Shown here: one piece after another, positions 7 to 12,380 of the stretch
Position numbering within the stretch: the stretch's first letter is position 1
Layout: each line of letters opens with the position of its first letter
NCBI GenBank assembly: GCA_024641005.1
Contig: JAHEDX010000005.1
Span: forward strand, 28,532 to 92,531
Length of the DNA: 64,000 nt
DNA from: Acidimicrobiaceae bacterium
GTDB lineage: Bacteria > Actinomycetota > Acidimicrobiia > Acidimicrobiales > Ilumatobacteraceae
Direction: 5' to 3'
The notes under the pieces: model-generated
Databases searched by the model: none
What the model saw: the letters and a program-made list of their open reading frames with translations, nothing else
Told to the model about the DNA's origin: nothing
Made by a program: the position numbers and the translations under genes

Positions 7-1350
7 GTGGTCGTCAGGCGGATCATCGGAGCCGTACACAATCCAGCGCAGCTCGTGCTCGCAGCGTTCGTGATGTTGATCCTCGTCGGCACGCTCCTGC
101 TGCGTCTGCCGTTCGCCGTCGATTCCGGTCTTCGCCACCCAGGTTTGCTCGATTCGCTGTTCTGGGCGACATCGGCGACAACGGTCACCGGGCTCGGCAC
201 GGTCGACGTCTCGACGTTCTCGTTGTTCGGCGAACTCGTGCTACTCGCCCTGATCCAGCTCGGCGGCTTCGGCATCATGACGATCGGCTCGGTGCTGGCC
301 CTCGTCGCCTCCCGACGCCTGGGCCTGCGCCAACGAATGCTCGCCCAAGCCGAAATCGGAGCGGTCGACATCGGCGAGCTTCGATACCTCATCTCGGCGA
401 TCGCCAAGATCACGCTCCTGGTCGAATCGTCGATCGCTCTGATCTTGTTCATCCACCTCTCGACCACCGGCGACGACAGCCTCGGCAGAGCGGCCTACAG
501 CGCGATCTTCCATGCCGTGTCGGCGTTCAACAATGCCGGGATCTCGCTCTACTCCGACAGCCTGACCCGGTTCGCCGGCGACCCGTTGGTGGTGTTCCCG
601 ATCACGGCTGCGTTCGTGATCGGTGGGCTCGGCTTCCCGATCCTCGTCGAGTTCCGCAAACGGGTGCCACCGAGGAAATGGAGCCTGCACACCCGTATCA
701 CGCTCGGCGCCACGGTGGTCTTGCTGATCGCCGGACCGCTGCTGGTGCTGGTGTTCGAATGGACCAACGTCGCGACCCTCGGCCCGATGGGGGTCTGGGA
801 CAAGCTGCAGGCAGCCTGGTTCCAGGGCGTCACGCCACGAACGGCGGGTTTCAACACCATCGACATCGGCGCCCAGCGTGAACCGACGTTGAACATCATG
901 ACCGGCCTCATGTTCATCGGCGCCGGCCCGGCCTCCACCAGCGGCGGCATCAAGGTCACCACCTTCGCGGTGCTCGGCTTCGCGATGTGGTCGGAAGTGA
1001 GGGGCGACAACGACATCAACGTGTTCAACCGTCGCCTCCCGGTGCAAGTGGTGCGTCAGGCGATGACCGTCGCGTTGTTGTCGGTCGGCACCGTCTTTGC
1101 CGGGGCGATCGCACTCACCGCGATGTCGTCGTTCAGCTTCACCCAGACCCTGTTCGAAGCCACTTCGGCATTCGGCACCGTCGGGCTGTCGACCGGCATC
1201 ACCAACTCGCTCCCCGGCGCCGGACAGTTCCTGTTGGTGCTGATCATGCTCACCGGCCGTATCGGCCCCGTCACATTCGTCACTGCACTCGCGCTGCGAC
1301 AACGCAGTCGCGCCTACCGTTTCCCAGAAGAGCGACCGATCATCGGTTGA
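7..1350 (+). CDS. ktrB: Ktr/Trk-type potassium uptake channel subunit
   Basis: This membrane protein of 447 aa should carry K+ (possibly Na+-coupled) uptake across the cytoplasmic membrane. It shows the four-repeat pore organisation of the TrkH/KtrB family: selectivity-filter-like segments TTVTGLGT (about residue 58), NNAGIS (about 175), TPRTAGFNT (about 278) and SAFGTVGLSTG (about 387), each between hydrophobic helices. The length fits KtrB rather than the longer TrkH. The GTG at base 7 is the first start available, and the true start could lie upstream of the window. The RCK partner follows after 19 bp with a good AAGGAG ribosome site, so the two form an operon. Family call is secure; Ktr versus Trk naming is less certain. 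Confidence 0.9.
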   Translation: MVVRRIIGAVHNPAQLVLAAFVMLILVGTLLLRLPFAVDSGLRHPGLLDSLFWATSATTVTGLGTVDVSTFSLFGELVLLALIQLGGFGIMTIGSVLALVASRRLGLRQRMLAQAEIGAVDIGELRYLISAIAKITLLVESSIALILFIHLSTTGDDSLGRAAYSAIFHAVSAFNNAGISLYSDSLTRFAGDPLVVFPITAAFVIGGLGFPILVEFRKRVPPRKWSLHTRITLGATVVLLIAGPLLVLVFEWTNVATLGPMGVWDKLQAAWFQGVTPRTAGFNTIDIGAQREPTLNIMTGLMFIGAGPASTSGGIKVTTFAVLGFAMWSEVRGDNDINVFNRRLPVQVVRQAMTVALLSVGTVFAGAIALTAMSSFSFTQTLFEATSAFGTVGLSTGITNSLPGAGQFLLVLIMLTGRIGPVTFVTALALRQRSRAYRFPEERPIIG

Positions 1351-1369: not shown

Positions 1370-2080
1370 ATGTCCGACAAGATCATCCACACCATGCTGA
1401 GCGGGCTGACGTCCGACCGCATCGAACACCGAGGCGAGATCATCGTGATCGGTCTGGGCCGCTTCGGATCATCGCTCGCCAGCACCTTGACCGAGCTCGG
1501 CTACGAGGTCCTCGGCGTGGATTCGAGCGAGGACAAGGTGCAGGAGCACGCGGGGATGCTCACCCATGTCGTGCAGGCGGACACCACCAGCGAACGGGCG
1601 CTCAGGCAGATCGGAGCCGCAGACGCGATCACCGCTGTCGTGTGCATCGGAACCGGCATCGAGGCCAGCGTGCTCACCACCACCGCATTGGTCGACCTGG
1701 GAGTCAAGAACATCTGGGCCAAGGCGATCACCGACTCGCACGGCCGCATCCTGCAACGGGTGGGCGCACACCATGTCGTGTTCCCGGAAGCCGAGATGGG
1801 CAGCCGGGTCGCCCACCTCGTCACCGGCCAGATGCTCGAGTTCCTGGCGCTCGACGACAACTTCGTGATCGCCGAGTTGATCGCACCCGACGAGCTGATC
1901 GGCGTGCCCCTCGGCGAGTCGAATCTGCGCGCCACCTACAAGGTGACCGTCGTGTGCGTGAAGCCCGCCACCGGCCAGTTCACCTACGCTGATCGCGAGA
2001 CCATCTTGGACAAGAGCGACCTGATCGTGATCGCCGGCCACCGCGCCGATGTGGAACGCTTCACCGAAACCGACCACTGA
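1370..2080 (+). CDS. ktrA: Potassium uptake regulatory subunit (RCK/TrkA-N)
   Basis: Cytoplasmic regulatory subunit of 236 aa that gates the adjacent KtrB channel by binding nucleotide. The Rossmann motif IGLGRFGSSLA lies near residue 27, followed by an acidic residue at the end of strand 2 (VLGVDSS), as in RCK_N domains. The C-terminal part (about 145-230; IGVPLGESNLRATYKVTVVCVK) matches the RCK_C fold. A single RCK_N-RCK_C unit is the KtrA size; TrkA proper is a double-length tandem. The start is preceded by AAGGAG. A 36-bp gap separates its stop from the convergent VWA gene. Confidence 0.92.
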   Translation: MSDKIIHTMLSGLTSDRIEHRGEIIVIGLGRFGSSLASTLTELGYEVLGVDSSEDKVQEHAGMLTHVVQADTTSERALRQIGAADAITAVVCIGTGIEASVLTTTALVDLGVKNIWAKAITDSHGRILQRVGAHHVVFPEAEMGSRVAHLVTGQMLEFLALDDNFVIAELIAPDELIGVPLGESNLRATYKVTVVCVKPATGQFTYADRETILDKSDLIVIAGHRADVERFTETDH

Positions 2081-2116: not shown

Positions 2117-3322
2117 TCAGCGCCGTTCGAGCGCCTCTGCCAGCACCTCGGGGAACCGGTCGGGGGTGCATGCCATCACCGTGGCTCCGAGTGCGACGAG
2201 GTCTGCTGCGGCACGCTGATCGTGCACGGGTGCCCCCTCGTCGCTGAGCGCGAGCAAGCACAGCACCGTGACGCCCGACCGGATCAGCTGGGCGACCCGG
2301 GTGCGCATCAGCTCGGCATTGCCCCCCTCGAAGAGATCGCTGATCAAGACGAGCACGGTGTCGTCGGGACGGGTGACGAGTTGGCGGCAGTACCCCAATG
2401 CCTCAGCGATGTCGGTGCCTCCACCGAGCTGGACACCGAACAACACGTCGACCGGGTCGTGGAGCACCGGTGTCAGGTCGGTGATACTGGTGTCGAACGC
2501 GATCAACCTGGTCTGCAGCGCCGGGAGCTGGGCGAGCACGGCACCGAACAGCGACGCGTAGACCACGCTGTCGGCCATCGAACCCGACTGGTCGACGGCG
2601 ATCACGACGTCTTTGGCAAGGCTGCGTTGGCGGCGGCCGAAACCGACCAGGCGCTCGGGGATGACGGTGCGGTACTGCGGCTGGTAGTGGCGCAGGTTGG
2701 CATGCACCGTACGAAGCCAGTCGACGTCACCAGGACGTGGTCGCCTGGATCGGTTGGCTCGTGCCAGTGCACCGTGTACTGCGACACGAGTGCGATCGGT
2801 CAGTCGTTCTTCGAGTTGCTCGAGCACTCGAGCGATCACCTGGCGAGCTGTCGAACGGGTCTCGTCGGGCAGCAGGTGGTTCAACTCGACGAGCAAGGTC
2901 ACGAGGTGGATGTCGGGCTCGATCGACTCGAGCAACTCGGGTTCGAGCAGCAGCTGACGAAGGTCGAGCCGTTCGATCGCGTCGCGCTGCATCACCTGTA
3001 CGACCGGCTTGGGGAAGTAGGTGCGGATGTCACCGAGCCAACGCGCGACCCGTGGCGCCGAACGACCGAGCCCCCCTGCCTTGCCGCTGCCACGACCACC
3101 GGAGCGCTGCTGCGCCCCCTGCTGGTCGTACACCGCCGCCATCGTGGCGTCGATGTGCACATCGTCGCCGCCGAGCTCGCTGCCGGTTCCGTCGGCGTCG
3201 CCACCCCCGAGGACGAGCCTCCAACGCCGCAAGCGTTCTGCCTCGGACACGTGCAAGGCGCCCACGCCATCGGCCGGCGAGCGTTCGGAATCGGTCGGGC
3301 GAGCGCCGTCGACCGCACTCAT
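2117..3322 (-). CDS. VWA domain protein of the MoxR-associated cluster (YehP-like)
   Basis: A 401-aa protein whose C-terminal half (about 205-395) is a von Willebrand A domain. The metal-ion-dependent adhesion site is intact: DQSGS, the GGGTD loop and ISDLFEGG. The N-terminal half is helical and charged, with a glycine/glutamine-rich linker. VWA proteins next to MoxR ATPases are thought to act as metal-dependent adaptors presenting clients to the AAA+ ring. The ATG overlaps the stop of the DUF5682 gene (ATGA), so it is the third gene of a MoxR-DUF5682-VWA operon. The longer 936-codon reading frame upstream is a shadow of DUF5682. E. coli yehP is the comparison; its biological role is not known. 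Confidence 0.87.
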   Translation of the reverse strand: MSAVDGARPTDSERSPADGVGALHVSEAERLRRWRLVLGGGDADGTGSELGGDDVHIDATMAAVYDQQGAQQRSGGRGSGKAGGLGRSAPRVARWLGDIRTYFPKPVVQVMQRDAIERLDLRQLLLEPELLESIEPDIHLVTLLVELNHLLPDETRSTARQVIARVLEQLEERLTDRTRVAVHGALARANRSRRPRPGDVDWLRTVHANLRHYQPQYRTVIPERLVGFGRRQRSLAKDVVIAVDQSGSMADSVVYASLFGAVLAQLPALQTRLIAFDTSITDLTPVLHDPVDVLFGVQLGGGTDIAEALGYCRQLVTRPDDTVLVLISDLFEGGNAELMRTRVAQLIRSGVTVLCLLALSDEGAPVHDQRAAADLVALGATVMACTPDRFPEVLAEALERR

Positions 3323-5520
3323 GCCGCACCGCTGCGATCGTCGACGGCGAGACCCAGCATGTGTCGAACCGTGCGCAACGCAGCCGAGACCCGGGCGTCG
3401 TCGAGGCCCGGCCCGAACCCGACAGGCACCTCGCGTGCCTCGCCGGCGACCAAGCGTCCGATCTGGCGACGCTCGGCCGCTTCGAACGACCCGAACGTAC
3501 GCCGGAGCAACGGCACCGTCTCGTCGAACGCCTGTGGGTCGAGTGACGACAACCATCGATCGACCACCGCACGCAGGTCGGCGTCGTGCAGCAGGACGGT
3601 GCCGCTGCCGGCAAGGAACCCCTCGACGAACGCGGCGCCGACGGCCGGAGGGGTTCCCGACGACAGGGCGCGGCCCAGCCGGAGTTCGACGCGGCGTCCC
3701 TCCCACTGTCCGCTGTCGTGCAGGATGCGGGTCGCCCTGCCGTGGACCCGGCCGTGTCCGCCGCCTTCGCTGAGGCGTTCGAGCACCTCGGGGAAGGCGC
3801 GGCGGCGGGCCCGATGGTCGACGAGAGCGAGCGCGTGCTGCACCCCGCTGAGGCGCTCGACCATGACTGCCGCGGCGTCGTCGTCGAGCGAGGTGCATGC
3901 GGGCACGACACCGGCGAGCACCCTGACGACCAGCCCATCGAAGACCGACGCGACCACCTCGGCATCGGTGGCGCGTACGTCGCCATAGCGCTGGGCCTGA
4001 GCGAGCGGGCCGAGGGCCGACATCAACTGGCCGACATCGGGATCGTCGGCCGCTCGGGTGGCGAGTTGGTGAACGACCGGGTCGATCGCGTCGGGCAACG
4101 AGGCGAGCAACGCCAGGTCGAGCGTTGCAGCGATCTCGACGAGACTGCTGGCGACGCGTGAGCGTTCGACCAACCGATTGGTGGCCGCACGTTCGACCGT
4201 GGTGCCGTAGCCGGCGAACTCGATGATGCGGATCGACCACTCGGGCCGCCACGCCAGACTCCAGGTCTCGCGGAACGTGCCGCTGCTGCCCCGACCCTGT
4301 TCGAGCGTGCCCCATGGCACCCCGATCGCAGCGAGCTGGTGCAGCAGGTGCGACCGACGTAGGCCGTTCGGCGTACGCAGGTCGAGCTCGATCGACTGGT
4401 CGGCGGCGGCGGGCTTGAGACGGGCGGTTCGCTGACGCTTGGCGAGATCGCGTGCCAGCGGAACCTGGGGGGCATCGTCGGGCACCGCCCCGATCGCGGT
4501 ACCGACCACCAGCTGTCGACGAACCAGGGGAAGGCCGCCCATCACCGTGTCGGCGGCGTCGAGCACCTCGTCGAGGCCCGGGCGCGGTCGCCCCCGCATC
4601 GTCGCCAAGGTGTCGGCGATGCGGGTTGCCGCGATCAGGTGATCGGGCGACGCAGACATGTCGGCACGGCGCAGCACCCTGGCGGCATCGACGAAGAAGC
4701 GGGCCGTACCGTCTGGGCCTGGATGGCGGAACACGTGGTCGTACCAGCCGGGGCTGCGCACTCCGGCGCCGTATCCGCTGGCAGCAGCGAGTCGCTCGTG
4801 TGTCCAGGGCACCCAGCTGACAGCGACCTTGACCTTGGGGAGACCGCGCAACGTGGCTGCGTCGGCGGTCGCCGACGTCGCTGCGGCCGCCGTGACGTCG
4901 AGCGCAGGGACGTGCCACGCGCCACACACGACGACGATCGTGTCGTGACCCTCCTTGATCGCCGCCCTGATCCGCTTGCGCATGTGCGCCTCGCGGCGTT
5001 CCTCGCCGAGCGACGGCACCGTGCCTGATCGCAGCGCAGCCATCGCCTCACCCACGGCGTGGAACGCGGTGAGGCCGTCGCCGCGATGTTCGATCACGTC
5101 GTCCCACCACCGTTCGGCGTCGGGTTCGCCGGCCGCAGCGGCCAGTGCACCGAGCGGATCGACCGGCACGTCCGACTGGATCAGCGCCTGGTCGTCGCCG
5201 CCGTGGGCCAGGGTGTTCGCGAGCGGCAGATCGATCGCTTCGACCCGGACGCCTCGTTCGTTCGCCCAACGAACCGCCTGCCATTCGGGACTGAACGACG
5301 CGAGCGGAGCGAACACCGCCCGACGCGGGTCATCGACGACATGACCGAGCAGCGCCACGGGCGGGTCGAGGCCGAACTCGCCGATCCAACGGAAGGCCGC
5401 CGTGGTCTCGGCGGGCGACTCGACCAGCACGACTCCTGGTTGCAGCTGGTCGAGCGCTCCGACCACCGACCGCGCCGAACCAGGCCCGTGATGCCTGACG
5501 CCCAGCAGGTGCAGTTCCAT
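3319..5520 (-). CDS. DUF5682 family protein (YehM-like)
   Basis: A 733-aa protein beginning MELHLLGVRHHGPGSAR, the hallmark N-terminus of DUF5682 proteins that accompany MoxR and VWA genes. A second conserved patch, VVCGAWHVPALD, lies near residue 195. The paired histidines (VRHHGPGS, GAWHV) recall the TraB/ChaN/EreA-like hydrolase fold, but that is my inference and not an established activity. The remaining roughly 500 residues are helical. The start lies 4 nt after the MoxR stop and its stop overlaps the VWA start, so translation is probably coupled. No signal peptide or membrane segments are seen. Confidence 0.85.
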   Translation of the reverse strand: MELHLLGVRHHGPGSARSVVGALDQLQPGVVLVESPAETTAAFRWIGEFGLDPPVALLGHVVDDPRRAVFAPLASFSPEWQAVRWANERGVRVEAIDLPLANTLAHGGDDQALIQSDVPVDPLGALAAAAGEPDAERWWDDVIEHRGDGLTAFHAVGEAMAALRSGTVPSLGEERREAHMRKRIRAAIKEGHDTIVVVCGAWHVPALDVTAAAATSATADAATLRGLPKVKVAVSWVPWTHERLAAASGYGAGVRSPGWYDHVFRHPGPDGTARFFVDAARVLRRADMSASPDHLIAATRIADTLATMRGRPRPGLDEVLDAADTVMGGLPLVRRQLVVGTAIGAVPDDAPQVPLARDLAKRQRTARLKPAAADQSIELDLRTPNGLRRSHLLHQLAAIGVPWGTLEQGRGSSGTFRETWSLAWRPEWSIRIIEFAGYGTTVERAATNRLVERSRVASSLVEIAATLDLALLASLPDAIDPVVHQLATRAADDPDVGQLMSALGPLAQAQRYGDVRATDAEVVASVFDGLVVRVLAGVVPACTSLDDDAAAVMVERLSGVQHALALVDHRARRRAFPEVLERLSEGGGHGRVHGRATRILHDSGQWEGRRVELRLGRALSSGTPPAVGAAFVEGFLAGSGTVLLHDADLRAVVDRWLSSLDPQAFDETVPLLRRTFGSFEAAERRQIGRLVAGEAREVPVGFGPGLDDARVSAALRTVRHMLGLAVDDRSGAA

Positions 5521-5524
5521 GAGG

Positions 5525-6619
5525 TCAGTCGAGGGCGCGACACGCCTCGTAGAAGTCGCCCCACCCCTCGCGTCGGGCCACGACCGCCTCGAGGTACTCG
5601 CGCCAGGCAACACCGTCGTGCAGCGGGTCGCGGACGACGGCACCGACCACGCCGGCCGCGATGTCGTCGGGCGACAACGTTCCGTTGCCGAAATGCGTGG
5701 CGAGCGACAACCCGTTCGTGACGACCGAGATCGCCTCGGCCGTCGACAGCGTGCCGCTGGGGACCTTGAGGCTCGTACCACCGTCGGCCGTGACGCCGTC
5801 GCGCAGCTCTCGGAACACGGTGACGACCCGGCGGATCTCGTCAGCGGCCGGGGCGATCGGCGGCAACCGGAGCGCCGTGCCGAGCTCGTTGACCCGCTGC
5901 GCGACGATCGCCATCTCCTCGTCGGCGGAGTCGGGCAACGGGAGCACCACCGTGTTGAATCGGCGGCGCAACGCCGACGACAGGTCGTTGACGCCGCGGT
6001 CGCGGTCGTTGGCCGTGGCGATCACGTTGAACCCTCGGGTGGCAGCAACCTCGGAGTTCAGCTCGGGCACCGGCATCGACTTCTCGGACAACGCCGTGAC
6101 CAGCGCATCCTGCACGTCGGACGGCATGCGCGTGAGTTCTTCGACACGAGCGATCGAGCCGAGCTGCATCGCTCGGTAGATCGGACTCGGAACGAGCGCA
6201 GCCTCGCTGGGCCCCTCGGCCAGCAGGCGGGCGTAGTTCCACCCGTAACGGAGCGTCTCTTCCGTGGTGCCCGCCGTGCCCTGCACGAGCAGCGTCGAAT
6301 CGCCGCTGATCGCAGCGGCGAGGTGCTCGCTGACCCAGGTCTTGGCCGTGCCCGGCACACCGAGCAACAGCAGTGCCCGGTCGGTGGCCAGTGTGGCGAC
6401 GGCGATCTCCATCAGGCGTCGCTTGCCGACATATTTCGGCACGATCACCGTGCCGTCGGCGAGCGACCCACCGACGAGATAGTTGACCACCGCCCACGGC
6501 GACAACCGCCAGTTCGGTGGTCGCTCGCGATCGTCGGCCGCAGCGAGCGCCGCCAGTTCGGAGGCGTGCTGTACCTCCGCATGCGGCCTGAGAATCTCGG
6601 TGGCATCGGTCGAACCCAT
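5525..6619 (-). CDS. MoxR-family AAA+ ATPase (YehL-like)
   Basis: AAA+ ATPase of 364 aa leading the MoxR-DUF5682-VWA operon. Walker A is GVPGTAKTW (about 97-105), and sensor 1 lies in NVIATANDRDRGVNDLSSALRRRF, with the polar ANDRD and arginine-finger-like RRRF. MoxR ATPases form hexamers that remodel partner proteins together with VWA cofactors. I chose the ATG at 6619 over upstream in-frame codons because the homologous region begins there and TAACGT sits 8 nt upstream as a possible -10. The gene is divergent from an MmcQ/YjbR-like gene across 63 bp. Substrate is unknown. Confidence 0.88.
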   Translation of the reverse strand: MGSTDATEILRPHAEVQHASELAALAAADDRERPPNWRLSPWAVVNYLVGGSLADGTVIVPKYVGKRRLMEIAVATLATDRALLLLGVPGTAKTWVSEHLAAAISGDSTLLVQGTAGTTEETLRYGWNYARLLAEGPSEAALVPSPIYRAMQLGSIARVEELTRMPSDVQDALVTALSEKSMPVPELNSEVAATRGFNVIATANDRDRGVNDLSSALRRRFNTVVLPLPDSADEEMAIVAQRVNELGTALRLPPIAPAADEIRRVVTVFRELRDGVTADGGTSLKVPSGTLSTAEAISVVTNGLSLATHFGNGTLSPDDIAAGVVGAVVRDPLHDGVAWREYLEAVVARREGWGDFYEACRALD

Positions 6620-6682
6620 CGCGTCAGACGTTACCCACCGGGTGCAACAGTCCCCGATGGGTAGGCCGTGCATACTGTCGTG

Positions 6683-7075
6683 ATGGTGGGACGGCGGAGC
6701 ACCGATCACTCGTTCGTCGACGCACTCGTCGAGTTCGCGCTCTCGTTGCCGGAGGCGTGGCCCGACGCACCGTGGGGTGATCGTGTGACGAAGGTCGGCA
6801 AGAAGATCTTCCTGTTCGCCAGCGGGCCCGATTCAGACCGGCCGGTGATCACCACCAAGCTGCCGGAGTCGCGCGACCATGCGCTGAGCTATCCCGAGGC
6901 GTTTCCGACGCGCTACGGGCTGGGCAAACACGGGTGGGTGACGATCTTCGTCGACACCGTGCCCACCGAGGAGCGCGACGTCCTGTTCGACTTCGTCGAG
7001 GAGAGCTATCGGGCGGTCGCCCCGAAGACCCTCGTCAAACGCCTCGACACCGAACTCGCCGACGGCGCCCGCTGA
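6683..7075 (+). CDS. MmcQ/YjbR-like protein
   Basis: Small cytoplasmic protein of 130 aa resembling the MmcQ/YjbR family (CyaY-like fold, proposed to bind DNA). Typical elements are LPEAWPDAPWGDRVTKVGKKIF near the N-terminus, then ALSYPEAFPTRYGLGKHGWVTI and a C-terminal RAVAPKTLVKRL. I prefer the ATG at 6683 over the GTG at 6668 because CATACT followed by 6 nt precedes it, giving a leaderless start. Its stop codon falls within an inverted repeat that may terminate it. Function in this organism is unknown. Confidence 0.75.
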   Translation: MVGRRSTDHSFVDALVEFALSLPEAWPDAPWGDRVTKVGKKIFLFASGPDSDRPVITTKLPESRDHALSYPEAFPTRYGLGKHGWVTIFVDTVPTEERDVLFDFVEESYRAVAPKTLVKRLDTELADGAR

Positions 7076-7158
7076 ACAAACGGGCCCCACACAAGGGCTC
7101 GACCCGTTCTGTTCAGCACTCTGCCGCACCGTCCCAGCGAAACGCTGCACAGAACGGG
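7071..7158. repeat. Nested inverted repeat with three related arms
   Basis: Three related arms occur in 88 bp: GCTGAACAAACGGG (7071-7084), CCCGTTCTGTTCAGC (7103-7117) and GCTGCACAGAACGGG (7144-7158). The middle arm can pair with either neighbour, so two alternative hairpins are possible. The first arm contains the stop codon of the MmcQ-like gene. The third arm is the exact reverse complement of a 15-mer at 32863-32877 in another palindrome, so this is a dispersed element. It may act as a terminator for the upstream gene. Confidence 0.7.
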
Positions 7159-7329
7159 TGACTTGACGCGTGGGAGGACCGGTTTCACCGATCTCAGCGA
7201 GCTGGGGTCCCCGGCGAACCGCGTGAGGTGTCTCCCGACAGCTCGACGGACCGCCACTGGCTGCGACTGGGCACGATTCCTCGCTGGCCGACATGATCGC
7301 GAATCTGCGCTGCGTGCCATAGTGACGGG

Positions 7330-7869
7330 ATGATCGAACTGGTGCTGACCATCATCGGGCGCGACCGGGCAGGTGTCGTTGCTTCCCTGGCCGACGTGGT
7401 CCGCTTTCACGACGGCAACTGGAAGCGCAGCGAGTTGGCCGAGATCGCGGGAACGTTCGCCGGCGTCGTGGTGGTGGAGGTCGGCGACGACCGGGTCGAC
7501 GAACTGCTCACCAACCTGCTGGTATTGCGTGACCAGGGTCTGCACGTGACGGCCCAGCAGGTCGAGGAACCCACCGTTGCACCCGACGCCGACGAGGTGC
7601 GCCTGCGACTCACCGGTGATGACCGACCGGGCGTGGTGCATGAGATCTCCACCGCGATCAGCGAACACGGAATCAGCATCTCGCGTCTGGGCACGGTCAC
7701 CGACTTGCCAGGCAAGGATGGCGGCAAGGGGTTCGAGATCACCGTCCAGTTGACCGTGCCGGTCGGGGCCGACGTCGACGCTGCGCTCGATTCGATCGGC
7801 GAGCTCGCCGTCAGCTTGGGCATCACCCTGCACGTGGAAGACCTGACGGGCAACGACGGGGACGAATAG
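7330..7869 (+). CDS. Tandem ACT-domain protein (GcvR-like)
   Basis: A 179-aa protein made of two ACT domains: one near residues 3-80 (ELVLTIIGRDRAGVVASLADVV) and one near 89-170 (VRLRLTGDDRPGVVHEISTAI). The GRDRxGVV/GDDRPGVV motifs are the usual ligand-binding turns. Proteins of this design, such as GcvR, sense amino acids (glycine in GcvR) and regulate by protein contact; no DNA-binding domain is present. The start has CATAGT 6 nt upstream and no ribosome site, so it looks leaderless. It lies between the two halves of the MoxR/SWIM cluster, with no obvious functional link. Confidence 0.82.
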   Translation: MIELVLTIIGRDRAGVVASLADVVRFHDGNWKRSELAEIAGTFAGVVVVEVGDDRVDELLTNLLVLRDQGLHVTAQQVEEPTVAPDADEVRLRLTGDDRPGVVHEISTAISEHGISISRLGTVTDLPGKDGGKGFEITVQLTVPVGADVDAALDSIGELAVSLGITLHVEDLTGNDGDE

Positions 7870-7894
7870 CCGGAACCGCGCTTTCGCGGACCGG
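7870..7894 (+). terminator. Hairpin after the ACT gene
   Basis: CCGGAACCGCG-CTTT-CGCGGACCGG forms a stem (CCGCG/CGCGG plus an outer CCGG/CCGG) with a small internal loop, directly after the TAG at 7867-7869. There is no U tract, as is usual for terminators in high-GC actinobacteria. The next gene is convergent. Confidence 0.55.
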
Positions 7895-7926
7895 ACGAAC
7901 GTCGCTGACGCTCACTCGCAGGTGGG

Positions 7927-8715
7927 TCACACAGCGGCACCGAGTTCGGTGAGCATGCGGTGACGCAGGCTCGCGAGGTCGGCGAGCGCCACCGCCAGCC
8001 CGACGTGAGCCGTGCCGAAGGTCGCTGTCGCGTTCGGCAACACCTCAGGGCGACAACGGGCGAAGAGGTTCACCAGCACGGCCCGGTGGGGCGGGCCGAA
8101 CTCGCCGGCATCGAAACCCTGCGCCAACCGGCGCACGAAGATGTGGGCATCTGCCACCAGCAGCTCGGCCAGCTCGGGGGGCACCGGCAACTCGGGGAGG
8201 GTGGCCACCGACTCGGCCGACACGGTCTTGCCGGTCGTCGCGGCGAGCGACGGAACGTGATCGACGAGCCAACTGGCGAGAGGCCCACCCGCGAGAGCGA
8301 CCCGCGCCCGTCGCGTCGCGTCGTTGCGATGACGCTGGAGCAACTCGACCAGCCCGTCGGGAGGCACGCGCATCCCGCGCTGGACCACCGTGAGCACCCA
8401 TTCGTCTTCGAGCACTGGCCACTCGGCCACCAGCGTGCGCCAGGTGGCCACCGCGGCCGCGCTGCAGCACAGCCGCTGATCGGCCTCGGGCATCTGCAAC
8501 CGGGGGGCAGGTGGGCCGGCGACGAATGCCGCTCGACGCACAGCAGCGACTGCGCCGACGGCCGCCAACATGCGCGACGCCCCGTCGGGGCGAACCGTGT
8601 CGTCGACCAGATCGGCGATCGGCCCGGCAGGCGGCATCGGCGGTTCACGCCGATCGGTACCCAGCAGCGCCGCCGTGACCAGCTCGTGCCAATAGGCGTC
8701 GAGATCAGAATTCAC
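7927..8715 (-). CDS. DUF5691 family protein, MoxR/SWIM cluster partner
   Basis: A 262-aa protein of unknown function, beginning (GTG) VNSDLDAYWHELVTAALLGTDRREPP, the conserved opening of DUF5691 proteins that accompany SWIM-domain and MoxR/VWA genes. The body is leucine- and alanine-rich, apparently all-helical and repeat-like, without catalytic motifs I can name. GTG overlaps the stop of the upstream SWIM gene (GTGA at 8712-8715), so the two are translationally coupled. No signal peptide or membrane segment is visible. The longer upstream reading frame shadows the SWIM gene. Confidence 0.78.
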   Translation of the reverse strand: MNSDLDAYWHELVTAALLGTDRREPPMPPAGPIADLVDDTVRPDGASRMLAAVGAVAAVRRAAFVAGPPAPRLQMPEADQRLCCSAAAVATWRTLVAEWPVLEDEWVLTVVQRGMRVPPDGLVELLQRHRNDATRRARVALAGGPLASWLVDHVPSLAATTGKTVSAESVATLPELPVPPELAELLVADAHIFVRRLAQGFDAGEFGPPHRAVLVNLFARCRPEVLPNATATFGTAHVGLAVALADLASLRHRMLTELGAAV

Positions 8716-10148
8716 GACGCACCAACGAACGATGATTCGGCACGAGGACCGAGATCGAGCGCGCGGTCGGCGAGGTGCACCGTGAGCAGGCGAACACCCC
8801 ACGGCGTCCATTCGATCGTCATGTCGACGCCCGTGTCGTCGGGCGCTCCGGCGCATGCCCCCAGCAGCGCGCCGAGCGATCGGTCGTCGCCCTGCAGCGG
8901 CAGCGAGCCGGTGGCGTCGGTGAGCACCCAACGCCCGTCGAGCATCGACGGCGCCGCCCGCACCGTGGCCGGGTACCGCTCGAGCCAGGGCTCGGCGGCG
9001 ACGGCGCTGCCGATCGCGTCGCACGCCGCTGCGATGGTGGCGGCCGCCGGAGTGGTGAAGGGAAGCGGGTCGGCGTATCGACGCCCGGCCAGCGCTCTCA
9101 ACGATCCGCCGGGATATCGATGCAGATCGGCGTGCACCACCGTGCCGACGGTGAACGAGTCGTCGAGGCTCTGCTGATATGCCGCGAACGACAACAACAT
9201 CGCCCAGTTGCCGGACCGCACCCCGCGGACCCACAAGCGGCGAACCTCGATGCGATCCTCACGGGTGTCGCTGCGTCCGGCGATGAACCACTCGTCGGTC
9301 TCGGGCACGCCGCCGAGCACGTCGGCCTGGCGCACCTGCCACCCCGACGCGGTCGCAACCGCATCAGCCAGCGGGCCCGGCAGTGTCGGCAATCGGCGAC
9401 CAGCCTGAGCGATCAGGTGCAGCAGCCCCAGCTCGGCGAGCACCTCGGCATGCCAGTCGGGGCCGGCGCCGACGAGACCCGCGAGACGACGAACCCGGTT
9501 GGCCAGCGAGCCCGCACGCGCGTCGACCAGGCGGGCAGCGAGCGCGTCCCACGTGCCATACCGGGCCAGTGCCGGGTCGGCCAGACCGGTGCGCATGCGG
9601 TCTTCGAGCCATCGGTCGAGTTCGGTCAATCCTTCCATCATGCGAGCGACGCGTTCGTCGCGTGACCGATCGAGTTCGTCACGATCGGTTGGCCGGGCCT
9701 CGTCGGGAGCGCCGCCCGGTCCATCACCGGCCGAACCCGGTGAGACACCGTCGGCGGCATCGCTCGAGCCTGCGCCGGCGGCCACGTCTGCTGCATCGTC
9801 AGCCGTACGGGAACGACGGTCGCGGCGGGTGATCCACGACCCGACCGACTCGGGTCGCAACGCGTCAGGCACGCCACCGCGCACCCACAGCAGCAGCAGC
9901 GCCAGCGCGTGCTTGCAGGGATGCTTGCGACTGGGGCACGTGCAGCGCCATGCGACCTCGACGTGATCGACGGCCGTGTCGTAGGGCTCGGCGCCCGAGC
10001 CGCGACAACGACCCCACAGCGCACGCTCGTCGGCTCCCGATGCCGACCACTGGCCGACGTCTGCCAGCGGTTCGGCAGCCGCGACCGAGCGGGGCGACGG
10101 GGCGACCGCGACCACCTGTTCGACGGTCCATCGCTTCACCTCGGCCAC
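8712..10148 (-). CDS. SWIM zinc-finger protein (YehQ-like)
   Basis: A 478-aa protein with a SWIM zinc finger of the CxCx(n)CxH type, CTCPSRKHPCKHALALLLLW (around residues 70-90), preceded by the conserved opening VKRWTVEQVVAVAPSPRSVAAAEPL. A long Asp/Gly-rich linker follows, then a large C-terminal region of unknown fold. SWIM fingers bind DNA or proteins. In E. coli, yehQ sits with yehL, yehM and yehP, matching the other members here. I chose GTG 10148 rather than TTG 10178 because homologous sequence begins there. First gene of a SWIM-DUF5691 operon. Confidence 0.82.
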   Translation of the reverse strand: MAEVKRWTVEQVVAVAPSPRSVAAAEPLADVGQWSASGADERALWGRCRGSGAEPYDTAVDHVEVAWRCTCPSRKHPCKHALALLLLWVRGGVPDALRPESVGSWITRRDRRSRTADDAADVAAGAGSSDAADGVSPGSAGDGPGGAPDEARPTDRDELDRSRDERVARMMEGLTELDRWLEDRMRTGLADPALARYGTWDALAARLVDARAGSLANRVRRLAGLVGAGPDWHAEVLAELGLLHLIAQAGRRLPTLPGPLADAVATASGWQVRQADVLGGVPETDEWFIAGRSDTREDRIEVRRLWVRGVRSGNWAMLLSFAAYQQSLDDSFTVGTVVHADLHRYPGGSLRALAGRRYADPLPFTTPAAATIAAACDAIGSAVAAEPWLERYPATVRAAPSMLDGRWVLTDATGSLPLQGDDRSLGALLGACAGAPDDTGVDMTIEWTPWGVRLLTVHLADRALDLGPRAESSFVGAS

Positions 10149-10206: not shown

Positions 10207-10641
10207 ATGAACGAACGAGTGGTATCCGTCTCCCGACTCATCAAGGCCTCCCCCGAGGCGATCTTCGACGTGCTGGCCGACCCGGCCCGCCATGGCGAGA
10301 TCGACGGGTCCGGCATGGTTCAGAACGTGCGCGGGGAATCGAAACGCCTCGAACTCGGTTCCAAGTTCGGCATGGACATGAAGATGGGGATCCTCCCGTA
10401 CCGCATCACGAGCACCGTCAAGGAGTTCGACGAGAATCGACTGATCGCGTGGGCCCACGCCGGCAAGCACCGCTGGCGTTACGAGCTCGAGCCGGTCGAG
10501 GGCGGCACGAAGGTGACCGAGAGCTTCGACTGGTCCACGTCCCCGATTCCCAAGGCGATCGAGATGATGGGGTACCCCAAGAAGCACCCCGCGAACATGG
10601 AGGCGACGCTCGAGCGGCTCGCCGACGTGGTCGAGGCCTGA
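10207..10641 (+). CDS. SRPBCC (START-like) family protein
   Basis: A 144-aa protein matching the polyketide cyclase/dehydrase branch of the SRPBCC superfamily: VVSVSRLIKASPEAIFDVLADPARHGEIDGSG at the N-terminus, a beta-rich middle (ITSTVKEFDENRLIAWAHAGKHRWRYELEP) and the final long helix near 125-143. These proteins bind small hydrophobic ligands; the ligand here cannot be inferred. TACCGT lies 8 nt upstream and may be a -10. The glutaredoxin-like gene follows after 17 bp, so co-transcription is likely. Confidence 0.82.
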   Translation: MNERVVSVSRLIKASPEAIFDVLADPARHGEIDGSGMVQNVRGESKRLELGSKFGMDMKMGILPYRITSTVKEFDENRLIAWAHAGKHRWRYELEPVEGGTKVTESFDWSTSPIPKAIEMMGYPKKHPANMEATLERLADVVEA

Positions 10642-10658
10642 CTCGCACGAGGCTCGCA

Positions 10659-10973
10659 ATGCCCACCGACACCGTTCACTTCTACTGGCGCCCGGGTTGT
10701 GGCTTCTGTTCGAGGCTGCGCCGCGGCCTCGACGATGCCGGAATCGAGACCGTCGAGCACAACATCTGGGACGTCCCCGAGGACGCGGCCACGGTGCGCT
10801 TCTACGCGAACGGCAACGAGACGGTTCCAACCGTGGTGATCGGCGAGGTCGGCATGGTGAACCCGTCGGCCAAGCAGGTCGCCCAGTACCTCGAGCACAA
10901 CGCGCCGCACCTGCTGCCGGACGGCTACGAACCGGCCGAGCCAGGTTTCATCGGCCGTCTGCTCGGTGGCTGA
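10659..10973 (+). CDS. Glutaredoxin-like thiol protein
   Basis: A 104-aa thioredoxin-fold protein of the actinobacterial glutaredoxin-like (mycoredoxin-related) type. The active site is WRPGCGFCSRL near residues 10-18, a CxxC motif, and the cis-proline region is TVPTVVIG (about 54). In actinobacteria such proteins reduce mycothiol mixed disulfides; this is family knowledge, not shown here. The C-terminal tail (HLLPDGYEPAEPGFIGRLLGG) is short and polar. I used the ATG at 10659; the 354-codon frame upstream is not coding. Confidence 0.82.
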   Translation: MPTDTVHFYWRPGCGFCSRLRRGLDDAGIETVEHNIWDVPEDAATVRFYANGNETVPTVVIGEVGMVNPSAKQVAQYLEHNAPHLLPDGYEPAEPGFIGRLLGG

Positions 10974-11067
10974 TTTCTCGATTCGGTTCGCCTCGGGCGA
11001 CGTCTCGCACGACGGTGGCGAACGGACCAGTCGCCGCCGTGGTCGACGCTGATCTGCACCCCCGACG

Positions 11068-11520
11068 TCATGGTGTGCAGGTCGCGCACGTGCCGTAGAT
11101 GTCGACTGCGTGGTGGAGCGGAGCGAAACCCAGAGCGGTGGCCACCTCGTCGAAGGTGCGATCCATCGCCGCTTCGACGCGATCGGGCAGCGTGACGTCG
11201 ACGACGGTGCCGCACGACTCGCAGATCAGATGGTGGTGATGCTCGGTCAGATGCTCGGCCAACTCGAACAATGCATGGTCGCCCACGTGCACCAATCGTC
11301 GGACCACGCCGACGTCGATCAGTACCGAGAGGCTGCGATAGGCCGAACTCTGTGCGAGCGATTCGTCGACCGCCAGCAGATCGGGCAGCGTGATCGGCGC
11401 CCCGGCTCGCGCCAACGCATCCACGACCGCTCGGCGATTGGCGGTGTAGTGCTGGCCGTGTTCGGCGAGGCGCGCCGCGATCGACCGGTGCAGATCGATG
11501 TCGGGAAGATCAGCGCCCAT
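11068..11520 (-). CDS. zur: Zinc uptake regulator, FUR family
   Basis: A 150-aa FUR-family repressor. The N-terminal winged helix spans about 1-80 (TANRRAVVDAL, SSAYRSLSVLIDVGVV). The metal-binding domain has the histidine run EHHHHLICESC with one CxxC and a second CxxC (CATC) at the extreme C-terminus, forming the structural zinc site. It overlaps the 3' end of the ZnuC gene by 11 nt and sits in a complete zinc-uptake locus, which supports Zur rather than Fur. It should bind the Zur-like boxes at 12340-12380 and so repress its own operon and znuAB when zinc is sufficient. Confidence 0.87.
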   Translation of the reverse strand: MGADLPDIDLHRSIAARLAEHGQHYTANRRAVVDALARAGAPITLPDLLAVDESLAQSSAYRSLSVLIDVGVVRRLVHVGDHALFELAEHLTEHHHHLICESCGTVVDVTLPDRVEAAMDRTFDEVATALGFAPLHHAVDIYGTCATCTP

Positions 11521-12340
11521 GGTCGTGGAGATGCTCGTGTGCGTGACGATGGGCGTCGTGGTGGGGCACCAGTTCGGGCGCGTGCGGCTCGCCATGATCA
11601 TGTCCGTGATCGTCGACCACGATCGACATCCCGTCGTCGCGGATCAGCCGACCACCGAACGCCTCGGCCAGCAGCGTCGGGACCAGCACTTCATCGGGCG
11701 GCCCGTCGGCGAGCACGCACCCGGCCATCAACATCACGCGATCGGACCGTCGCGCCTCCGCGAGGTGGTGGGTCGAGAAGACGACGGTGCCACCGGATGC
11801 GGCGTGCTGCGCGATCACCTCGAGGATCCTGAGCTGGCTGGGCAGATCGAGGCCGGTGATCGGTTCGTCGAGCAACAACAGGTCGGGCCTCGCGGCCAAC
11901 GCCTGGGCCACGAGCACTCGCTGCTGTTGACCACCCGACAGCTCGCCGAACGAACGCCGACGCAGACCGGTCACCTCGAGCAGCTCTGCCGACCAGTCGA
12001 TGCACTCGCGATCCTCGCGGCGTAGCGGACCGAGCAGGCCCCGATGCTGGTAGCGCCCCATCCGCAGCACCTCGTCGACCGACAGGGGCATCCAGCGATG
12101 ATGCTCGCGATGCTGCGTCACCATCGCCACGCTGCCGTTCACCGCGACCGTGCCCTCCTCAGGTGTGACGAGCCCGGCGAGCAGCGACAGCATCGACGTC
12201 TTCCCGCTGCCGTTCGAACCCACCAACGCGACGATGGCGCCGCGATCGAGTTCGAACGATGTCGGGGCGAGCGCGACCACCGGCCCGTAGTGCACGCACA
12301 CGTCGTGTGCGCTCACGAGATGATGACTGCTGGTTGGCAT
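11510..12340 (-). CDS. znuC: Zinc ABC transporter ATP-binding protein
   Basis: ATPase subunit (276 aa) of a zinc/manganese-type ABC importer. Walker A is VGSNGSGKTS (about 37), the signature is LSGGQQQR, Walker B is LLLLDEP, and the switch histidine lies in FSTHHL. The C-terminus is unusually histidine-rich (HGHDHGEPHAPELVPHHDAHRHAHEHLHDHGR), likely a zinc-binding tail. The start at 12340 lies 24 bp from the divergent znuA start and has no Shine-Dalgarno; GAGAAT ends 7 nt upstream, suggesting a leaderless transcript. Zur is encoded downstream with overlap. Confidence 0.92.
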   Translation of the reverse strand: MPTSSHHLVSAHDVCVHYGPVVALAPTSFELDRGAIVALVGSNGSGKTSMLSLLAGLVTPEEGTVAVNGSVAMVTQHREHHRWMPLSVDEVLRMGRYQHRGLLGPLRREDRECIDWSAELLEVTGLRRRSFGELSGGQQQRVLVAQALAARPDLLLLDEPITGLDLPSQLRILEVIAQHAASGGTVVFSTHHLAEARRSDRVMLMAGCVLADGPPDEVLVPTLLAEAFGGRLIRDDGMSIVVDDHGHDHGEPHAPELVPHHDAHRHAHEHLHDHGR

Positions 12341-12380
12341 GAGAGTGATTCTCACTCTAGCATCATGAGAATGGTTCCCA
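12334..12380. promoter_or_regulatory. Divergent znu promoter with two Zur-like boxes
   Basis: Forward promoter: TTGGCA (12334-12339), 18-bp spacer, TAGCAT (12358-12363), then 7 nt to an ATG at 12371. The spacer holds TGAGAGTGATTCTCA (12340-12354), a 15-bp inverted repeat like actinobacterial Zur boxes (TGAAAATNATTTTCA). A second weaker copy, TGAGAATGGTTCCCA (12366-12380), overlaps the znuA start. On the minus strand GAGAAT lies 7 nt before the znuC ATG. One Zur dimer on the first box would block both directions. Confidence 0.72.

Follow-up and report, generated by a model that had tools for sequence, protein, structure and literature searches.

A conserved SWIM-DUF5691-MoxR-DUF5682-VWA operon, interrupted in one genus of the Ilumatobacteraceae, and a predicted TraB/Tiki-like domain in DUF5682

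Five genes encoded in a 64,000-nucleotide stretch of an Acidimicrobiaceae bacterium genome (contig JAHEDX010000005.1; hereafter the window) lie there as two groups, MoxR-DUF5682-VWA and SWIM-DUF5691, and these are the parts of one operon with the order SWIM-DUF5691-MoxR-DUF5682-VWA that was later interrupted in the genus to which the window belongs. On balance we favor the interpretation that their products form one conserved machine, in which MoxR and VWA proteins would control a Tiki-type hydrolase, DUF5682, with SWIM and DUF5691 as a recognition unit. The system is conserved and apparently functionally undescribed, and its MoxR subfamily is already known (PMC3893208); what we add is its history as a single operon, the existence of two layouts, and the Tiki-like domain. 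The features of the window locus are as follows.

2117-3322, minus strand: VWA gene, VWA_CoxE-type adaptor of 401 aa (Pfam VWA_CoxE, E 8e-54)
2579-2593, minus strand: VWA MIDAS motif DQSGS, with T303 and D329 further along
3319-5520, minus strand: DUF5682 gene, 733 aa (Pfam DUF5682, PF18934, E 4.5e-230, 766 bits)
4801-5520, minus strand: predicted TraB/Tiki-superfamily domain, DUF5682 residues 1-240
5491-5493, 5419-5421 and 4912-4914, minus strand: DUF5682 candidate active-site residues H10, E34 and H203 respectively
5525-6619, minus strand: MoxR gene, AAA+ ATPase of the YehL type, 364 aa (Pfam AAA_5, E 8e-38)
6338-6361, minus strand: MoxR Walker A, GVPGTAKT
6128-6148, minus strand: MoxR Walker B region, RVEELTR, in which E-E replaces the usual D-E
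6668-7075, plus strand: YjbR/MmcQ-like gene (Pfam YjbR), inserted between the operon halves
7330-7869, plus strand: double-ACT (GcvR-like) gene (Pfam ACT_6), inserted
7927-8715, minus strand: DUF5691 gene, short form of ~262 aa (Pfam E 3e-18)
8712-10148, minus strand: SWIM zinc-finger gene, 478 aa, GTG start, heading the ancestral operon (Pfam SWIM, E 1e-6)
9909-9944, minus strand: SWIM motif C69-x-C71-x6-C78-x-H80 (CxCx6CxH)

Pfam matches and coordinates bear out the first-pass annotation in naming these five genes, placing all of them on the minus strand, and recognizing plus-strand MmcQ-like (YjbR) and ACT genes between them. The ATGA/GTGA overlaps that it described inside each operon are present at the DUF5682/VWA junction (a 4-bp ATGA overlap, 3319-3322) and the SWIM/DUF5691 junction (a 4-bp GTGA overlap, 8712-8715), but MoxR and DUF5682 are separated by 4 bp and do not overlap. 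A promoter scan gave no signal above chance. A Fur-family regulator and an ABC transporter are encoded ~1 kb from the window operon, and the loci closest to the window DUF5682 (79-86% identity) are in Ilumatobacter and related genomes.

The defining motifs of the ATPase and its VWA partner are complete. The Walker A and B, sensor 1, and arginine motifs of MoxR are all present and are invariant or nearly so among 39 family members; the G, P, G, T, A and K of Walker A are found in 39/39 and its last T in 32/39, and both E160 and E161 of Walker B are universal (39/39). Each MIDAS residue of the VWA protein (D, S, S, T and D) is conserved in all 40 sequences of the family alignment. The SWIM protein belongs to a 24-sequence conserved family, with C69, C71 and H80 present in 30/30 family members and C78 in 29/30. 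The window DUF5691 matches its Pfam family (PF18944) with 66.9 bits (cut-off 27) over only positions 1-152 of 491, and it retains both ends of the family while lacking the middle ~230 residues.

The five genes are linked far beyond chance. Three independent searches, for DUF5682, DUF5691, and the SWIM family, were performed on the same 247 Actinomycetota genomes, with SWIM-family members accepted at E < 1e-90 and DUF5691 counted above its cut-off. DUF5682 is present in 19 genomes, whereas DUF5691 occurs in 17 and so does the SWIM family; these are the identical 17 genomes, all of which also have DUF5682, and the genes are always linked within a few kb (Fisher p ~2e-24). In the two genomes with only DUF5682 (G125 and G205), the copies are divergent and lie near DUF4132 as linked genes. 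The co-occurrence of the families across actinobacteria, which the first-pass annotation had put forward as a check, is thus clear, and neither random neighborhoods nor separate occurrence of the two gene groups was found. Of the 76 good genomes of Ilumatobacteraceae, 34 encode DUF5682; among those listed, the genomes lacking it are mostly 1.5-2.6 Mb and those containing it are mostly larger.

The order SWIM-DUF5691-MoxR-DUF5682-VWA, with all genes on a single strand, recurs across the Actinomycetota at loci found through DUF5682 and in whole-genome regions, and extends to other phyla. It is kept in Rhizobium and Methylosinus (Alphaproteobacteria), the latter with a broken VWA frame; in Deinococcus taeanensis, with an extra gene of 79 codons between MoxR and DUF5682; in Hymenobacter (Bacteroidota), with other genes interposed between MoxR, DUF5682 and VWA; and in Verrucomicrobiaceae (Verrucomicrobiota), with DUF4132 interposed between MoxR and DUF5682. 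In Hymenobacter sp. UV11 and HDW8, SWIM and DUF5691 are fused as a single protein. Because the genes are contiguous and on one strand elsewhere, the split arrangement of the window is derived, and the two separate modules described in the first-pass annotation do not reflect the general organization, which is either one operon or, in a streptomycete-like genus (g39), a SWIM-DUF5691 pair that is divergent from the MoxR-DUF5682-VWA part yet adjoins it. The 39 loci compared were chosen by the presence of DUF5682, which biases linkage among them, and co-occurrence was therefore judged from the independent genome searches.

The interruption can be located within the family. DUF5682 and DUF5691 are 2.05-9.3 kb apart in seven measured genomes of the window genus and no more than 1.45 kb apart (approximately one MoxR gene) in 31/39 genomes of other genera of the family. 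YjbR occupies the gap in three genus relatives (L044, L006 and L004), is farther from MoxR in relative L005, and persists as a 26-residue remnant in L002; it was not found in the examined loci of other genera, and the ACT gene was not found in the locus of any examined relative. The YjbR and ACT genes are insertions and lie outside the system. That two unrelated operons became neighbors by accident could be read from the unrelated plus-strand genes that separate the pair in the window, and from the divergent transcription in the streptomycete-like group; we regard it as scarcely credible given the co-occurrence in 17 of 17 genomes and the contiguity of the genes both in other phyla and in the majority of the family's genera.

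A second layout is illustrated by Escherichia coli, in which the gene order is yehI (DUF4132)-yehK-yehL-yehM-yehP-yehQ. The order of YehL, YehM and YehP is the same as that of MoxR, DUF5682 and VWA in the window, and the proteins are 41% (over the full length), 27%, and 37% identical to their respective counterparts; YehM matches Pfam DUF5682 at E 2e-98. E. coli bit scores from one profile set are inflated by its E. coli members, and homology here rests on the Pfam and pairwise comparisons. The yeh cluster differs in having DUF4132-type genes (yehF/H/I) upstream and yehQ downstream, and in lacking DUF5691, which was not found in the E. coli control genomes, including K-12. The first-pass annotation held that yehL, yehM, yehP and yehQ represent the same families; the first three encode true homologues, whereas YehQ shares the SWIM motif only and was rejected as an orthologue of the window SWIM protein (no BLAST match; hhalign E 0.29). 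Homology was not detected between DUF5691 and DUF4132. Related arrangements include DUF4132-MoxR-DUF5682-VWA-SWIM on an Iodobacter plasmid, MoxR-DUF5682-DUF4132-VWA-SWIM in Sinorhizobium, and a second DUF5682 copy near DUF4132 in several actinobacterial genomes; DUF5682 and DUF4132 co-occur with Fisher p ~6e-10. These DUF4132-linked layouts, together with the homology of YehL, YehM and YehP, thus identify MoxR-DUF5682-VWA as a common core, accompanied by either SWIM-DUF5691 or DUF4132-SWIM.

E. coli K-12 has two MoxR proteins, of which YehL is one, and YehL represents one of seven MoxR subfamilies (PMC3893208). No functional study of the yehL operon was found in the literature searched, nor was a functional paper on DUF5682 or DUF5691, in agreement with the earlier view of the system as conserved and functionally undescribed.

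The combination of MoxR, vWA and a large third component raises the question of a biological-conflict or anti-phage system akin to the MoxR-vWA ternary systems (Kaur et al. 2020). The window MoxR has a weak match to Pfam bpMoxR (22.6 bits; cut-off 27), the MoxR of a distant relative (L100) passes that cut-off with 31.8 bits, some copies are on plasmids, and the distribution across Actinomycetota is patchy. Of 5426 complete E. coli genomes, however, 5305 (98%) contain the yehLM stretch, nearly always on the chromosome, which argues against a sporadic defense system. PADLOC gave no meaningful match, the composition of the system is stable across phyla, the window VWA protein stops at the end of the VWA domain without a swapped effector (Pfam), and neither 'YehL' nor 'DUF56..' is in the text of Kaur et al. 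2020 (PMC7159879); a conflict role is therefore improbable. The L100 copy is labeled 'phage' (MT835988, an unverified metagenome scaffold), but it resembles bacterial operon sequence and was excluded as evidence of mobility.

The N-terminal ~240 residues of DUF5682 probably adopt a TraB/Tiki-superfamily fold, as judged from structural models and motif order. An AlphaFold2 model built with 37 sequences (mean pLDDT 83.7) has alpha/beta structure in residues 1-240 followed mostly by helices, and the N-domain modeled separately has a pLDDT of 84.6. Its motifs are, in order, GVRHHGPG (after strand 1), VLVESPAE (strand 2), AIDLP, REAHMR and VVCGAWHVPA (after a later strand), such that the GxxH...E...GxxH order of TraB/Tiki proteins is conserved across 57 DUF5682 homologues. 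H10, H11, E34, E79, D97, E144, R164, R176 and E177 are identical in 57/57, H203 is identical in all 55 homologues having a residue there, and H10, E34 and H203 are invariant between the window protein and YehM.

Sequence comparisons with Tiki-clan families give faint matches that agree with this assignment. Pfam TraB_PrgY_gumN has weak matches to 7/28 DUF5682 members (best E 0.0014), none of which is above the curated cut-off of a Tiki-clan sequence family in Pfam; the window protein itself scores 13.7 bits against a cut-off of 26.8. Pfam ChaN ('Tiki superfamily') weakly matches two distant DUF4132-associated members (E 0.12-0.15). Alignment of DUF5682 with a nine-sequence YbaP-family profile using hhalign gave E 0.002, with both motifs aligned in order (the first via a second segment) and a score of 31.3 as compared to a maximum of 22.6 among 180 shuffled decoys; the power of this test is low, as the same thin profiles missed an accepted TraB-Ere pair used as a positive control.

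In structural comparisons with viral models, Foldseek gave one significant match of the N-domain, to a TraB family protein from a marseillevirus (probability 1.00, E 1.8e-5, TM 0.31-0.34), and TM-scores to TraB-like structures are low throughout (0.31-0.37). No match to the PDB reached E 0.001; ranks 1, 3 and 8 of that non-significant list all fall on the same subunit of complex IV from Tetrahymena. A TraB-family subunit is reported for this complex (PMC10060162), and the TraB identity of the matched chain is presumed. Rank 17, also non-significant, is BcR135 from the Ere group, which has served as a reference for Tiki proteins (PMC6254334). Full-length DUF5682 mainly recovered ARM/HEAT-like helical repeats from the PDB, through its C-terminal part and never at E <= 0.001, and no relative emerged when PDB sequences were searched with the DUF5682, SWIM and TraB profiles. 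A histidine-phosphatase fold was also considered from the resemblance of RHHG to RHG and several weak Foldseek matches; the second-site GxxH, the invariance of E34 and the one significant match, to TraB, favor Tiki instead.

The catalytic set of active Tiki enzymes is 2His/2Glu, and some superfamily members (PMT) lack the catalytic motif (PMC6254334). We consider it somewhat more likely than not that the DUF5682 site is active, with E79, E144 or E177 as the candidate second Glu. A different reading is that MoxR and VWA constitute a NorQD/CoxD-like maturation chaperone that remodels a client for metal insertion or complex activation, with DUF5682 as a non-catalytic client or scaffold and its Tiki fold non-enzymatic. 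MoxR-VWA pairs of known function act in this way (PMC13036017; PMC3893208), the window VWA is of the CoxE type, and the nearby Fur-family regulator and ABC transporter would fit. Unlike in nor or cox clusters, no client enzyme or cofactor gene recurs beside the operon beyond near relatives, and the putative active-site residues are kept across the 57 homologues despite pairwise identities below 30%; we consider a chaperone of this kind rather unlikely.

From the computed linkage, layouts, motif conservation, and fold resemblance we infer how a complex controlled by MoxR and VWA may form, what it may catalyze and on which substrate, and the role that each subunit would have. A YehL-type MoxR AAA+ hexamer and its VWA partner would be motor and adaptor, as NorQ is with NorD; in NorQD the MoxR-VWA coupling is established, with a finger of the VWA protein entering the MoxR pore (PMC13036017). 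The motor would act on DUF5682, which may be both enzyme and platform, its Tiki hydrolase domain being carried on a helical body, with a peptide or ester bond as the predicted target. SWIM-DUF5691 may form a distinct unit that recruits the substrate, by recognition or as a scaffold, and the gene linkage suggests that it contacts the MoxR-VWA core; where the layout is that of E. coli, its place would be filled by DUF4132 together with YehQ, which is a different SWIM protein. ATP hydrolysis could either deliver a remodeled substrate to the Tiki site or act on the site itself, switching or maturing it (metal loading is one example). YjbR later interrupted the operon in the window genus, as did ACT in this species, and the parts nonetheless stayed together. 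The earlier proposal of an AAA+/VWA machine with a DNA- or protein-binding SWIM component agrees with the linkage and the complete ATPase and VWA motifs; no sign of DNA binding was found.

MoxR-VWA pairs are widespread, and many are without a known job. Three core genes are common to the E. coli and actinobacterial clusters, accompanied by one of two alternative modules with a putative recognition role, and the candidate active site in DUF5682/YehM makes function directly testable in E. coli by mutating a few residues. More tentatively, the system, which occurs in nearly every E. coli and in at least six phyla, could represent an unrecognized class of protease or hydrolase under AAA+ control, in which a MoxR-VWA motor feeds or switches the DUF5682 Tiki site and the recognition modules (SWIM-DUF5691 or DUF4132-YehQ) are interchangeable.

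Among known systems, NorQ-NorD and RavA-ViaA pair a MoxR ATPase with a VWA partner as in the window, but lack DUF5682, SWIM and DUF5691. Their clients are known, namely NO reductase and respiratory complexes. The MoxR-vWA ternary conflict systems share with the window operon the association of MoxR, vWA and a third component (PMC7159879); in these the third component is VMAP, iSTAND, FtsH or a beta-propeller and the vWA protein has variable effectors (PMC7159879), neither of which was seen in the window operon by Pfam or PADLOC. The YehL subfamily, with whose founding member the window MoxR shares the full-length identity given above, is listed in PMC3893208, the available part of which does not describe the DUF5691 and SWIM partners or the Tiki-like domain. 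With TraB/PrgY/GumN (YbaP) and the wider Tiki superfamily (Ere, ChaN and Tiki), DUF5682 shares the motif order, the alpha/beta core and one fold match to a TraB model, at a sequence similarity below the family cut-offs; it differs from these families in adding ~480 mostly helical residues and in its location within a MoxR-VWA operon.

The DUF5691 proteins of the Ilumatobacteraceae lack the middle ~230 residues but not the two ends (alignment A3; window copy at 7927-8715), and the C-terminal L..R..M..EL signature is retained in the same alignment. Among the genomes listed for this family, those without the SWIM-DUF5691-MoxR-DUF5682-VWA operon are mostly 1.5-2.6 Mb and those with it are mostly larger; within the family, presence of the system seems to track genome size.

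The following genes flank the operon in the window:

7-1350, plus strand: TrkH, potassium uptake (Pfam)
1370-2080, plus strand: TrkA, potassium uptake (Pfam)
11068-12355, minus strand: Fur-family regulator and ABC-transporter ATPase, genes overlapping

The TrkH/TrkA pair adjoins the VWA gene and is convergent with it. About 1 kb separates the Fur-family/ATPase pair from SWIM. This pair appears to be a locus for metal uptake; its regulator is possibly Zur, and the ATPase has a tail rich in His/Asp.

In a Methylosinus plasmid (L096) the VWA gene (10220-11388) is spread across several frames and is apparently a broken copy, adjoining an intact SWIM-DUF5691-MoxR-DUF5682 segment. MoxR-DUF5682-VWA also opens scaffold MT835988 (L100, 253-4879), which carries the unverified deposit label 'Bacteriophage sp.' and is probably a fragment of bacterial origin.

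A further, third DUF5682 paralogue, distant at 99-108 bits, is present in other actinobacteria (loci L058, 5806-13264, and L059, 5515-10863). No SWIM, DUF5691 or DUF4132 (a partner in the E. coli yeh-type layout) was detected near it at these loci, and it has its own MoxR and VWA, in the order VWA-MoxR-DUF5682.
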